From: Fibrobacter sp. UWH4
Lineage (GTDB): Bacteria; Fibrobacterota; Fibrobacteria; Fibrobacterales; Fibrobacteraceae
Direction: 5' to 3'
Assembly: GCF_900142475.1 (NCBI RefSeq)
Contig: NZ_FRAY01000001.1
Span: forward strand, 248,001 to 312,000
Length of the DNA: 64,000 nucleotides
In this document: positions 19,543-24,137 of the stretch, piece after piece
Layout: each line of letters opens with the position of its first letter
How positions within the stretch are numbered: position 1 is the first letter of the stretch
Translations under genes and position numbers: made by a program
The notes under the pieces: generated by a model
Databases searched by the model: none
The model's input: the letters and a program-made list of their open reading frames with translations, nothing else
What the model was told of the DNA's origin: nothing

Positions 19543-20457
19543 TCAGGGTGTCCCGTTAAAGTAGAATTGGAAATTGTCCGGAGTGCTTGCCAATCCGGCA
19601 AGTTCCAGCTCTGTTAATATAGCTAATATGTTGACTGGCTTGAGGTTACATTCCCGCTGAAGGTCGGGAAAAGTCTTGCGGAAACCGTTGAACTGCTTGA
19701 AAAGGCGGAGCGCGTCGGGTGAAAGGGTGCATCCGGTGGCGGCAACTTGAGAAAGACTCGGTGCCGTACAGAGAGAATCGTTTGACTTGACCTGCGGAAG
19801 CCCGGCAACCAGACGCAGACTTTCGGGGATGAAGACGGGGGTTGCCTTTCCCTGGTCCAAGTAGAAATTCGGGCCGCTTGCGACTTCGCTGTCGAAATCT
19901 CCGGGGACGGCGAACAGAGGCTTGTTCTCTTGCAGGCAGTTGTCGGCGGTGATCAGGGCTCCGCCCTTAAGTTTACTTTGTACTAAAACCGTTCCTTGAG
20001 AGAGTCCGCTGATGATGCGGTTCCTTGCCGGGAAGTTCCCCTTGTAGGCGGGGAAGTCTTTTTCGTATTCAGTGAGAATGCAGCCTCCTTTGTCGACAAT
20101 CTGCCTGGCGAGTGTGGCGCGGTCTCCGGGAATGGGAATGTCGAGCCCTTGAGCGATCACGGCGATGGTCGGAATCCCGTATTCAATGGCGGCCTCGTGG
20201 CAGTAGCTGTCGATGCCCTGGGCGAGTCCCGATACGACAACGGCGTTCGTTCCGATGAGCGATTTGACGAGCCTGCGACAGAGTTCTTTGGCGGAATTGC
20301 TCGGACGGCGCGTGCCGACCATGGCGATTCCGACGGATTCTTTTTCGGGGAGTGTCCCGATGCCGTACAGGCGCTTCGGCATGAACTTGGATTGGGAAAG
20401 GGCGAGAGGAAAATCTTCGGGCGCAAGTTCCATATACTTTCTATCTTTGTGGGTCAT
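19543..20457 (-). CDS. dprA: DNA processing protein DprA (Smf)
   Basis: 304 aa. The start at 20457 is backed by AAAGGAG 7 nt upstream. The Rossmann-like DprA core shows MVGTRRPS, SGLAQGIDSYCHEAA, TIAVIAQGLD, FPARNRIISGLSQGTVLVQ, GALITADNCL and FAVPGD. A winged-helix-like segment follows. DprA loads RecA on incoming single-stranded DNA in transformation. The first bases of the start overlap the start codon of the divergent mazG. Confidence 0.95.
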   Translation of the reverse strand: MTHKDRKYMELAPEDFPLALSQSKFMPKRLYGIGTLPEKESVGIAMVGTRRPSNSAKELCRRLVKSLIGTNAVVVSGLAQGIDSYCHEAAIEYGIPTIAVIAQGLDIPIPGDRATLARQIVDKGGCILTEYEKDFPAYKGNFPARNRIISGLSQGTVLVQSKLKGGALITADNCLQENKPLFAVPGDFDSEVASGPNFYLDQGKATPVFIPESLRLVAGLPQVKSNDSLCTAPSLSQVAATGCTLSPDALRLFKQFNGFRKTFPDLQRECNLKPVNILAILTELELAGLASTPDNFQFYFNGTP

Positions 20458-21286
20458 GAAATACTCCTTTCAAGACTTGTTGAATATCATGGCCACCCTC
20501 CGTTCGCCCGAAGGGTGCCCTTGGGACCGTCAGCAGACGCACCAGTCCCTGTTGCCGTATCTTGTCGAAGAATCCCACGAATACATTGACGCCGCACAGG
20601 CGGACGACAAGGTCCACATGGCGGAGGAACTGGGCGATGTCCTGTTCCAGGTGGTATTCCATTCCCAGGTCGCAAAGGAAAATGGGGATTTCTCAATCGA
20701 CGACGTGGTGCAGGGAATCTGCGAAAAGATGATCCGACGCCATCCTCACGTTTTTGGGGACGCGAAAGTCGATGATTCGAAAGGCGTTGTTCGCCAGTGG
20801 GAACGCATCAAGGCGCAGGAAAAGAATAATCTACCAATGGCGGGCAAGTCTGCTATGGACAAAGTAAGCAAGAGCTTGCCGACGCTCGCACGTGCCCAGG
20901 AACTTCAGCGCCGTGCAGCCAAAGTGAGCTTTGACTGGACCGAGGCTGAACCTGTCTTTGACAAGGCTGTAGAAGAATTTAGTGAATTTCGCACCGAAAT
21001 GCAAGCGGCCTCGCCAGAAAATCGCAATATTGAGCGTATGGAAGATGAATTTGGCGACATCATGTTCAGCTTGGTGAATGTGGCGCGCCACTGCGGCTTC
21101 AACGCGGCCCTTGCGCTGGAACGCGCAAACTCCAAGTTCGAACGCCGTTTCCGTGTTGTCGAGCAGATGGCCCGCGATCAGGGCAAGGAAATGAAGGACA
21201 TTGGCCTCGAGGGCCTGCAAGAATTGTGGAAACAGGCTAAAAAAAAAGTCATTGCGAGCGTAGCGCGGCAATCCATTGGACTCTAA
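20456..21286 (+). CDS. mazG: Nucleoside triphosphate pyrophosphohydrolase MazG
   Basis: 276 aa. It has two MazG domains: LRSPEGCPWDRQQTHQSLLP with EES and EELGD (residues 12-60), and a second with EEFSE and EDEFGD (about 178-205). Hydrolyses NTPs and possibly aberrant dNTPs or ppGpp. The ATG at 20456 lies in TCATGA, sharing two bases with the divergent dprA start. The last residues (VIASVARQSIG) are encoded by a genomic repeat, so the original C-terminus was probably shorter or different. Confidence 0.95.
   Translation: MKYSFQDLLNIMATLRSPEGCPWDRQQTHQSLLPYLVEESHEYIDAAQADDKVHMAEELGDVLFQVVFHSQVAKENGDFSIDDVVQGICEKMIRRHPHVFGDAKVDDSKGVVRQWERIKAQEKNNLPMAGKSAMDKVSKSLPTLARAQELQRRAAKVSFDWTEAEPVFDKAVEEFSEFRTEMQAASPENRNIERMEDEFGDIMFSLVNVARHCGFNAALALERANSKFERRFRVVEQMARDQGKEMKDIGLEGLQELWKQAKKKVIASVARQSIGL
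21251..21277 (+). repeat. Repeat element encoding the MazG C-terminus
   Basis: ATTGCGAGCGTAGCGCGGCA followed by ATCCA is a common bacterial intergenic repeat form. Here it is read in frame as IASVARQS just before the mazG stop. Confidence 0.7.
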
Positions 21287-21361
21287 TTTGGAGCATTCCA
21301 CTTTGGAATAAGACTTTTACGAAATTTTTTCCGCAAGCAAATTTTTTACGGTATATTATGT

Positions 21362-21492
21362 AATGTGCTTCCAGTCCATTCTGGTTTAGCGAAGGGATGC
21401 TGGAGCAAATCACGGGGTAGAATAGACCGGAAGCACGCTTGTTTTCTTCTAATTCCACTCGTCCCGCAGGGTAAAACCTGCGGGATTTTTTT
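21362..21492 (+). ncRNA. Candidate small structured RNA with own terminator
   Basis: No gene lies here. A TATATT/TATTAT box sits at about 21350-21357. Bases 21365-21382 pair with 21419-21436 as three perfect segments (GTGCTTCC/GGAAGCAC, GTC/GAC, ATTCT/AGAAT) separated by two single mismatches. A 36-nt apical region lies at 21383-21418. A strong rho-independent terminator follows at 21462-21492. The size and single-hairpin form resemble a small SRP-type RNA, but the conserved GGAAG-AGCA SRP motif is not in the right place, so the family is left open. Confidence 0.6.
21462..21492 (+). terminator. Rho-independent terminator of the candidate ncRNA
   Basis: A 9-bp stem TCCCGCAGG/CCTGCGGGA with a 6-nt loop and seven T residues. 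Confidence 0.85.
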
Positions 21493-21535
21493 GTGGATCC
21501 CGTCGCGATTTTCAATCGCTCCAGGATGACTAGCA
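21493..21535. repeat. GATCCCGTC...AGGATGAC intergenic repeat
   Basis: GGATCCCGTCGCGATTTTCA, then ATCGCTCCAGGATGAC: a palindromic element (GCGATT/AATCGC arms) of the family also seen at 54933-55022 and 47023-47045, and in altered form inside genes. Confidence 0.7.
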
Positions 21536-21544
21536 AAAAAAGAA

Positions 21545-21651
21545 CCCGGTGAGTATTATGACCGCACGAGCTGCAAATAAGTTGGTTCTTATACTTGGCT
21601 CGTGCTCTCGCCACCGCCCCAACTTTACGTTTGGGGCTTTGTGGCTCACGG
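21545..21651 (+). ncRNA. Structured repeat, copy C (plus strand)
   Basis: Possible closing stem CCGGTGAG/CTCACGG. Arm 1 is CACGAGC (21565-21571) with GCTCGTG (21598-21604) around a 26-nt loop containing TTCTTA. The linker is CTCTCGCCACC, arm 2 is GCCCCAAC/GTTTGGGGC (21616-21637), and the tail is TTTGTGGCTCAC. It shares order and sequence with copies A and B on the opposite strand. Function unknown; it may be a repeat, RNA element or remnant. Confidence 0.5.
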
Positions 21652-21670
21652 TCTCCCATCAGGATGACCA

Positions 21671-21702
21671 ACTAAAAAATCCCCGGTGCATTGCACCGAG
21701 GA
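21671..21702. terminator. Bidirectional terminator between the structured repeats
   Basis: ATCCCCGGTGCA/TGCACCGAGGAT stem flanked by A and T runs on both sides. On the minus strand it can end the fusA transcript together with copies A and B. Confidence 0.8.
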
Positions 21703-22007: not shown

Positions 22008-24137
22008 TTAGGCTCTAGCCTTGGCCTTGTCGCCGTACTTCTTGATGAGTTCGTCCTGGATGTTCTTCGGAACCGGGAGGTACTTGCAGAATTCCATGGT
22101 GAATTCAGCCTTACCCTGGGTCATAGAACGCAGGTCAGTAGCGTAGCCGAACATTTCGGACAGCGGGACTTCGGCGGTGATGGTGGTCATGCCGAGTTCT
22201 TCGTTCGTACCGGTGATGGTACCACGACGCTGGGAAACGTTACCCACGACAGAACCCTGGAATTCGGTCGGAGTCTGGATTTCGACCTTCATGATCGGTT
22301 CGAGGATCTGAGCGCCAGCCTTTTCGAAAGCTTCGCGGAAGGCCATACGGGCTGCAACCTGGAACGCCATATCAGAGGAGTCAACCGGGTGGTATGCACC
22401 ATCCTGGACTTCCATTTCGATACCCACAACCGGGAAGCCGATCAAGGAACCAGCTTCCATGCAGCTCTGGAAACCCTTGTCGCAAGACGGGATGTATTCC
22501 TTCGGAATACGGCCACCCACGACGGAGTTCACGAAGTTGTAGACCTTTTCCTGGTCGCCTTCGACAGCCATCGGACGCATTTCGCCGACAACCTTAGCGT
22601 ACTGACCAGAACCACCGGTCTGCTTCTTGTGAGTGTAGTCGAACTTGGCCGGACGGGTAATGGTTTCGCGGTAAGCCACCTGCGGAGCACCGGTCGTCAC
22701 GTCGCACTTGTATTCGCGGCGCATACGTTCGATGTAAACGTCGAGGTGAAGTTCGCCCATACCCTTGATGATGGTCTGGCCGGATTCCTTGTCGACTTCC
22801 ACCTGGAACGTCGGGTCTTCCTTGGTGAAGCGGTTCAGAGCCTTGGACATGTTGTCCAGGTCGTCGCGGTTCTTGGCTTCGATCACGAGTTCGATCACCG
22901 GATTCGGCACGTGCATAGAAGTCATGTTGTAGTGGTTCTTGCCATCGGTAAAGGTAGTACCGGAAGCGCAGTCGATACCGAACAGGGCAACAATGTCGCC
23001 TGCACCGGCTTCGGTGATATCCACCATCTCGTCGGCGTGCATACGCACGAGACGGCCCACGGACACCTTCTTGCCGGTGGCCATGTTGGTGATCATGTCG
23101 CCCTTCTTGAGGGTACCCTGGTAAATACGGATGTAGGTGAGCTGGCCATAGCGGTCGTTCACGAGCTTGAACGCGTAGCAGACGAGCGGAGCGTTGTCTT
23201 CGGACTTCAGCACGACTTCGGCTTCGTTGTTGTCGAGGTCGAGAGCCTTGTTTTCAACTTCGGTCGGGTTCGGGAGGTAGTCGATAACGCCGTCGAGGAG
23301 CTTCTGGACACCAACGTTCTTGTGAGCGGAACCCATGAACACCGGGGTCACTTCGAGGCTGATGGTAGCCTTGCGGATGGTGGCCTTGATGAGGTTCTTG
23401 TCGATTTCGTCGACGCCATACTGGCCTTCCATAGCCTTTTCCATGATTTCGTCGCTGTAGTCTGCGCAGCAGTCGATCAGCTTTTCACGGTATTCGTTAG
23501 CCTGGTCAACGAGTTCGGCCGGGATTTCCTTTTCGATCATGTCGTCGCCGTTAGCGCCTTCGAAGTAGTAGGCCTTCATTTCGACGAGGTCGACCACGCC
23601 CTTCAGTTGGTCTTCGAGACCGATAGGAATCTGCATGACGCAGGGCTTGTGGTTGAGCTTTTCCTTGAGCATGACAGCCACGCGGAGCGGGTTTGCACCG
23701 GAGCGGTCGCACTTGTTCACGAACACGACGCGCGGCACATGGTAGCGCTTCATCTGGCGGTCAACGGTAATAGACTGGGACTGAACACCTTCCACGCCGG
23801 TGAGCACGAGGATAGCACCGTCGAGCACGCGGAGAGAACGTTCCACTTCGATCGTGAAGTCCACGTGCCCCGGGGTATCAATGATGTTGATGGTGTCGGC
23901 TTCGCCAGACTTGGTGTGGGTCCAGTTTGCAAACGTGGCAGCAGACTGAATCGTGATGCCGCGTTCGCGTTCAAGTTCCATGGAGTCCATCGTGGCACCG
24001 ACGCCGTCTTTACCACGAACTTCGTGGATAGCGTGGATACGCTTTGTGAAGTAGAGGATACGTTCGGTAAGGGTGGTCTTACCGGAGTCGATGTGGGCAG
24101 AAATACCAATATTTCTGTGCTTTTCAATGTTTTTCAT
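22008..24137 (-). CDS. fusA: Translation elongation factor G, spd/mitochondrial EFG1-like
   Basis: 709 aa. The five-domain translocase GTPase shows P-loop AHIDSGKTT, switch [19 protein letters not shown] and NKCD. The motifs [20 protein letters not shown] and [14 protein letters not shown] are those of the EFG1 type shared by spirochaetes, planctomycetes, some deltaproteobacteria and mitochondria, rather than the standard EF-G (which has GxxHxGAATMDWM). Domain IV has PQVAYRETI and [13 protein letters not shown]. It stands alone, outside any str operon. Assignment to the spd class is inference from motifs. Confidence 0.95.

Follow-up and report, generated by a model that had tools for sequence, protein, structure and literature searches.

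The question posed by this locus is what occupies the space between mazG and the convergently oriented gene for elongation factor G (EF-G) in a 64,000-nucleotide stretch of DNA (the window) from Fibrobacter sp. UWH4, a member of a genus of major cellulose degraders in herbivore guts. An earlier note had proposed a small RNA gene in a gene-free spot, with a long stem, a 36-nt apex, a strong terminator, and a -10-like box just upstream. Comparison of the window with its relatives shows the gene architecture listed in Table 1, wherein a long helix (P1) carries a short helix (P2) and an apical loop, followed by a linker and a terminator. As proposed, the P1 arms pair at 16 of 18 positions (two mismatches) and flank a 36-nt apex, and the terminator stem is followed by T's. 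The TATATT box recurs upstream of the stem in relatives' copies. The gene-free spot is flanked by mazG and EF-G, and a mechanical 140-aa TTG-start ORF that spans the small RNA on the minus strand (21249-21671) is taken as a putative chance frame. The last codons of mazG contain a palindromic repeat, TTGCGAGCGTAGCGCGGCAAT (21252-21272), of which this is the sole copy in the window; the mazG tail of locus L006 carries a stretch that resembles it.

Table 1. Features of the small RNA locus and its neighbors, in window coordinates
Feature	Position	Strand	Basis or remark
mazG, upstream neighbor	20456..21286	+	ORF; gene name from the earlier note
Upstream promoter element TTGGARNRTTCYNNNNNGGRA	21288..21308	+	about -77 to -57 relative to the first base of the stem
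-10 box TATATT	21352..21357	+	seen by comparison of copies
Small RNA gene	21365..21492	+	about 128 nt; start placed from the -10 box and the stem
P1 5' arm, GTGCTTCCAGTCCATTCT	21365..21382	+	both-side changes in 15 of 17 P1 pairs
P2 5' arm (GGTTT, bulged A, GC)	21383..21390	+	pairing and both-side changes
14-nt apical loop GAAGGGATGCTGGA	21391..21404	+	column conservation; several unpaired positions invariant
P2 3' arm (GCAAATC)	21405..21411	+	covariation alignments
Asymmetric 3' bulge ACGGGGT	21412..21418	+	sequence, and sometimes length, variable in other genera
P1 3' arm, AGAATAGACCGGAAGCAC	21419..21436	+	covariation alignments
Pyrimidine-rich linker	21437..21459	+	clade-specific: similar inside clades, different among clades
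Intrinsic terminator hairpin and T-run	21461..21492	+	10-bp stem at 21461-21486, then T's
EF-G, convergent neighbor	22008..24137	-	ORF; named from sequence

BLAST recovered copies across the genus, of which 21 loci were used. Here "the genus" denotes g1, the window's own, and some genomes of the other numbered genera (e.g., F. intestinalis) are also titled Fibrobacter. A covariance model (R1) built from the cores of 15 of these loci (14 distinct; alignment A1) matches 76 of 80 genus genomes, including all 40 of high quality (completeness of 90% or more, contamination of 5% or less), and the conservation to which the earlier note had looked as a check was thereby found. One of the 76 carriers (G017) holds only a contig-end fragment (L078), which was left out of the alignments. 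The four genomes that lack a match are 69 to 88% complete, and in one of them (G019) the contig ends inside EF-G. A single copy is present in 75 of the 76 carriers, G032 having two, and the element is therefore not a dispersed repeat, which had been named as a possible refutation.

Phylum-wide, 89 of 167 genomes contain an R1 match, which shows that the RNA extends beyond the genus: these are the same 76 and 13 others from six further genera (g17, g18, g19, g21, g22, and g23) of its family, Fibrobacteraceae. Two genomes of the phylum-wide set, G162 and G165, hold two copies each. The second copy in G165 (loci L069 and L070) scores like a g1 copy (86.7 bits) and adjoins a mazG tail, reflecting either contamination or transfer. 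In three other genera of the family (g14, g15, and g16), the RNA was found neither with R1 nor with a broader model, R2, and no diverged copy lies within ~1.5 kb of EF-G at six loci of these genera; the RNA is therefore not universal in the family. R2 added only weak matches of 19.7 to 26.4 bits. Two of these were weighed as distant homologs outside the family (G040 and G133; 26.4 and 21.5 bits), but approximately 8 to 9 pairs are broken on alignment, and they were taken as chance; second matches in G030, G011, and G010 (21.8, 20.4, and 19.7 bits) are presumably chance as well. A search of GTDB genomes with the exact core pattern, which possibly omits records near the window, returned 46 stretches, all titled Fibrobacter, Fibrobacteraceae, Fibrobacteria, Fibrobacterales, or Fibrobacteres. 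Virus sequences yielded no match with the long core and three with a shorter core; two of these receive 16.3 and 11.4 bits from the model and one is unscored, and all were taken as chance.

Single-sequence folding alone is not a strong sign of a structured RNA. The region 21350-21500 folds better than each of 200 dinucleotide shuffles (z = -3.68; -3.79 for 21365-21492), and six folded copies gave z values from -5.68 to -1.09, the weak ones being L014 (-2.05) and L074 (-1.09). Covariation was assessed with 41 distinct copies from the 80 loci searched, near-duplicates having been removed by eye. In a MAFFT alignment (A3), for which the structure was written by hand and partly derived from the same sequences, 93.4% of pairing cells are paired versus 77.7% in shuffles, both-side changes occupy 152 cells versus 44.7, and the covariation score is 0.500 versus 0.216. 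Sliding the partners by 1 to 3 columns lowers pairing to 31.8 to 44.7%. Both-side changes affect 18 of the 23 pairs in A3, 15 of 17 in P1 and three of six in P2 (in 1, 2, and 7 copies), such that the support comes mostly from the long stem. A model-fitted alignment (A4), which is biased toward the structure and from which 35 opposite-strand echoes among 115 matches were dropped by an E-value cut, gives both-side changes in 17 of 24 pairs, with 96.1% of cells paired. At the level of sequence comparison, such compensating mutations show that the hairpin, and P1 above all, matters.

A long and near-perfect dyad might instead be an inverted repeat that acts as DNA, either as a protein site or as part of a mobile element, and the model does score the opposite strand at 22.8 to 32.8 bits in 35 loci. 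However, G-U cells outnumber A-C cells by 75 to 17, which shows selection on the plus-strand RNA. Moreover, the unpaired apex is conserved, promoter and terminator lie on one strand, and nearly all genomes carry a single copy. We consider a purely DNA-level repeat scarcely credible.

The apex is retained in other genera, where the sequence of P1 is rewritten. Within it, the predicted P2 helix is well supported: 275 of 277 cells are paired. When folded singly, the window copy and those of some relatives form another apical helix in place of P2 as their lowest-energy structure; this alternative pairs in 80.0% of cells but was rejected, as it is complete in only seven of 41 copies versus 39 of 41 for P2 in A4, an alignment biased toward P2. 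Several unpaired apex bases are invariant across copies, a further check that the earlier note had named: columns G31, A32, G36, A37, G39, and A45 each keep one base in 39 to 41 of 41 copies, and unpaired columns 32, 36, 37, 39, and 66 of A4 do so in all 41. Columns 33 and 38, which lie between invariant ones, vary. This interrupted conservation would be more in keeping with a folded recognition site than with an unbroken antisense seed. Within the loop, tandem G.A pairs and a GG/CY helix of 2 bp could form. A peptide encoded in the apex (ATG CTG GAG CAA ATC ACG GGG TAG) was also considered and rejected; the reading frame is not retained among relatives, the ATG being missing in L009 and L083.

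A scan with the sigma-70 consensus reported no promoter at the small RNA. Nevertheless, at least 28 of 41 copies have TATATT in the 22 nt that precede the stem, 25 of them placing it at -12 or -13. Farther upstream, 26 of 29 genus copies have their best match to TTGGARNRTTCYNNNNNGGRA between -76 and -78 (0 to 4 mismatches), and in L092, L095, and L097 it falls at -62. This match has 0 or 1 mismatch in 15 of 41 copies, versus at least 3 in all 119 downstream control windows. Among the 12 copies outside the genus, the best matches carry 2 to 6 mismatches, numbers that for the most part overlap those of the controls, and the comparison therefore shows the element for the genus only. When one mismatch is tolerated, 22 sites of the motif are found in the window's genome, versus seven for a reversed control. 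Some genomic sites of this repeated ATTCCAANTTGGAAT-type motif, which includes 21288-21308, lie near ileS-like and proA-like genes (named from sequence), and it is possibly the operator of some regulator.

The RNA starts 78 nt past the end of mazG and ends in a terminator, as would be expected of a structure or terminator in the mazG 3' UTR, or of a leader for a downstream gene; at L064 and L069 the next same-strand genes are a tRNA and an L25-like gene. Yet it has its own promoter, and the -77 element is also present in copies without adjacent mazG (L009, L012, and L016). Within ~1.5 kb, mazG is found at 19 and EF-G at 16 of the first 21 loci, versus one and seven, respectively, of 15 loci from other genera, nine of which have a tRNA (Arg-TCT or Gln-TTG) within ~225 nt. 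Because copies without mazG exist, the 3'-UTR reading is rejected, and a leader does not agree with the next gene in the window, EF-G, being on the opposite strand; we give these explanations almost no weight. The neighbors vary between genera, and the small RNA therefore keeps its identity independent of them. Conservation, covariation, promoter, and terminator together support the original proposal of a small RNA gene.

How might such an RNA act? Because the conserved loop sits on a freely varying stem, recognition by a protein is suggested. The explanation to which we give roughly even chances of being right is that the locus is a free-standing gene of Fibrobacteraceae for a trans-acting and probably protein-bound RNA. 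Its own promoter would yield an RNA of ~128 nt, in which P1, free in sequence provided that pairing holds, would display P2 with its strongly conserved purine-rich loop (GANGGGANGCYNGA). A partner, most probably a protein, would recognize this loop, and the RNA would act as a small ribonucleoprotein, either in a housekeeping role or by titrating or guiding the bound protein. The clade-specific linker ahead of the terminator may add antisense pairing.

The linker also raises a different explanation, which we regard as possible yet doubtful, namely an ordinary antisense small RNA whose linker or loop pairs near mRNA start codons and alters translation, with P1 merely stabilizing the molecule. 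The linker is similar within clades even though the stem varies, and clades differ from each other, a pattern that suggests base pairing in some clades and could equally reflect antisense action. For example, CATTGATCATCCTCCT is identical in all six g18 linkers (L067, L068, L071, L074, L075, and L076) despite their differing stems, and it holds an anti-Shine-Dalgarno-like CCTCCT that is present also in the 16S 3' end, GGATTACCTCCTTT. However, the linker is absent or unrelated in the genus clades L014, L020, and L083-L097, in which the loop is kept, the conserved bases of the loop are broken up by variable ones, and Hfq was not found in any of 31 genomes searched, 19 of them from the genus. We infer both protein binding and antisense pairing from patterns of sequence conservation, and retain the protein-bound RNA as the preferred reading. 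Separately, antisense pairing to rRNA was assessed with one rRNA operon stretch each from the window's genome (G000) and from G158; only 9-mer complementarities were found, three of which overlap to 11 nt directly after the G158 16S, and these were taken as chance.

Another candidate role is that of a functional replacement for 6S RNA, as a hairpin bound by the RNA polymerase holoenzyme in a family without detected 6S. The 6S model (RF00013) has no match in the window, in this genome, or in 13 genus genomes (0 of 13), in agreement with the earlier view that the RNA is not 6S. In the phylum it matches 22 of 167 genomes, none in this family, under stricter filters that could pass over a very divergent 6S. 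Elsewhere in the phylum, L186-L191 (family f9) are divergent 6S candidates, three of them above the Rfam cut-off, and are worth adding to the seed. A replacement would agree with the presence of the small RNA in all high-quality genus genomes, and both RNAs are free-standing and of hairpin type. In contrast, 6S has a central bubble with long stems on either side, whereas this far shorter RNA has no long stems flanking a bubble, its 72-nt core offering a single short helix at the apex, compared with a 6S model of 187 positions. Furthermore, the family genera without this RNA are also without a 6S match, and there is therefore no either-or pattern; a 6S substitute appears very unlikely. With no 6S detected in the family, and neither Hfq nor CsrA found in the genus genomes that were searched, we also entertain, as an improbable but not idle speculation, that a lineage-specific housekeeping ribonucleoprotein RNA took over global regulation, combining a universal protein-binding loop with a clade-specific, exchangeable pairing arm.

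An RNA found throughout the high-quality genomes with a conserved promoter element provides a handle on Fibrobacter regulation, which matters in a genus without detected Hfq, CsrA, or 6S, and the alignment is ready for a new Rfam family. In the open-access literature, no title among the matches listed names a Fibrobacter small RNA. One passage counts 16 sRNAs for the FCB group as a whole, not named there (PMC9029176), and neither that passage nor a reference-list entry (PMC2864571) describes this small RNA.

Among known families, nothing in Rfam 15 reaches its gathering score over the small RNA in the window, which completes the database check foreseen in the earlier note, and this negative result alone supports its claim that the RNA is not tmRNA. 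Twelve relatives searched against Rfam gave only four tRNAs at gathering score. Matches to the L20 leader (22.7 bits versus a gathering score of 58.7) and to STnc390 (23.7 versus 50 bits, E = 0.0048, 3' of the core) fall far below these scores. A weak match to the trpB ncRNA motif (RF04312; 25.6 bits versus 59, E = 0.37) covers the small RNA and was taken as chance, the likeness consisting of a hairpin plus terminator. With CsrB/RsmZ-type RNAs, the small RNA shares a loop, AGGGAUG, that resembles the CsrA consensus ARGGAUG. However, it has a single such loop, and CsrA was found in none of 19 genus genomes searched (seven of all 31 searched have it), and for this reason a CsrA sponge was rejected. 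SRP RNA is likewise small and rod-like and has conserved purines at its apex, but the GGAA of that apex is absent from the apex here. The SRP RNA of this genome (RF00169) is encoded elsewhere, at G000:C1:483660-483756, and the small RNA has no RF00169 match, so the earlier judgment that it is not SRP RNA stands. The best reading of these comparisons is that the small RNA is a novel family of a known kind, the bacterial sRNAs.
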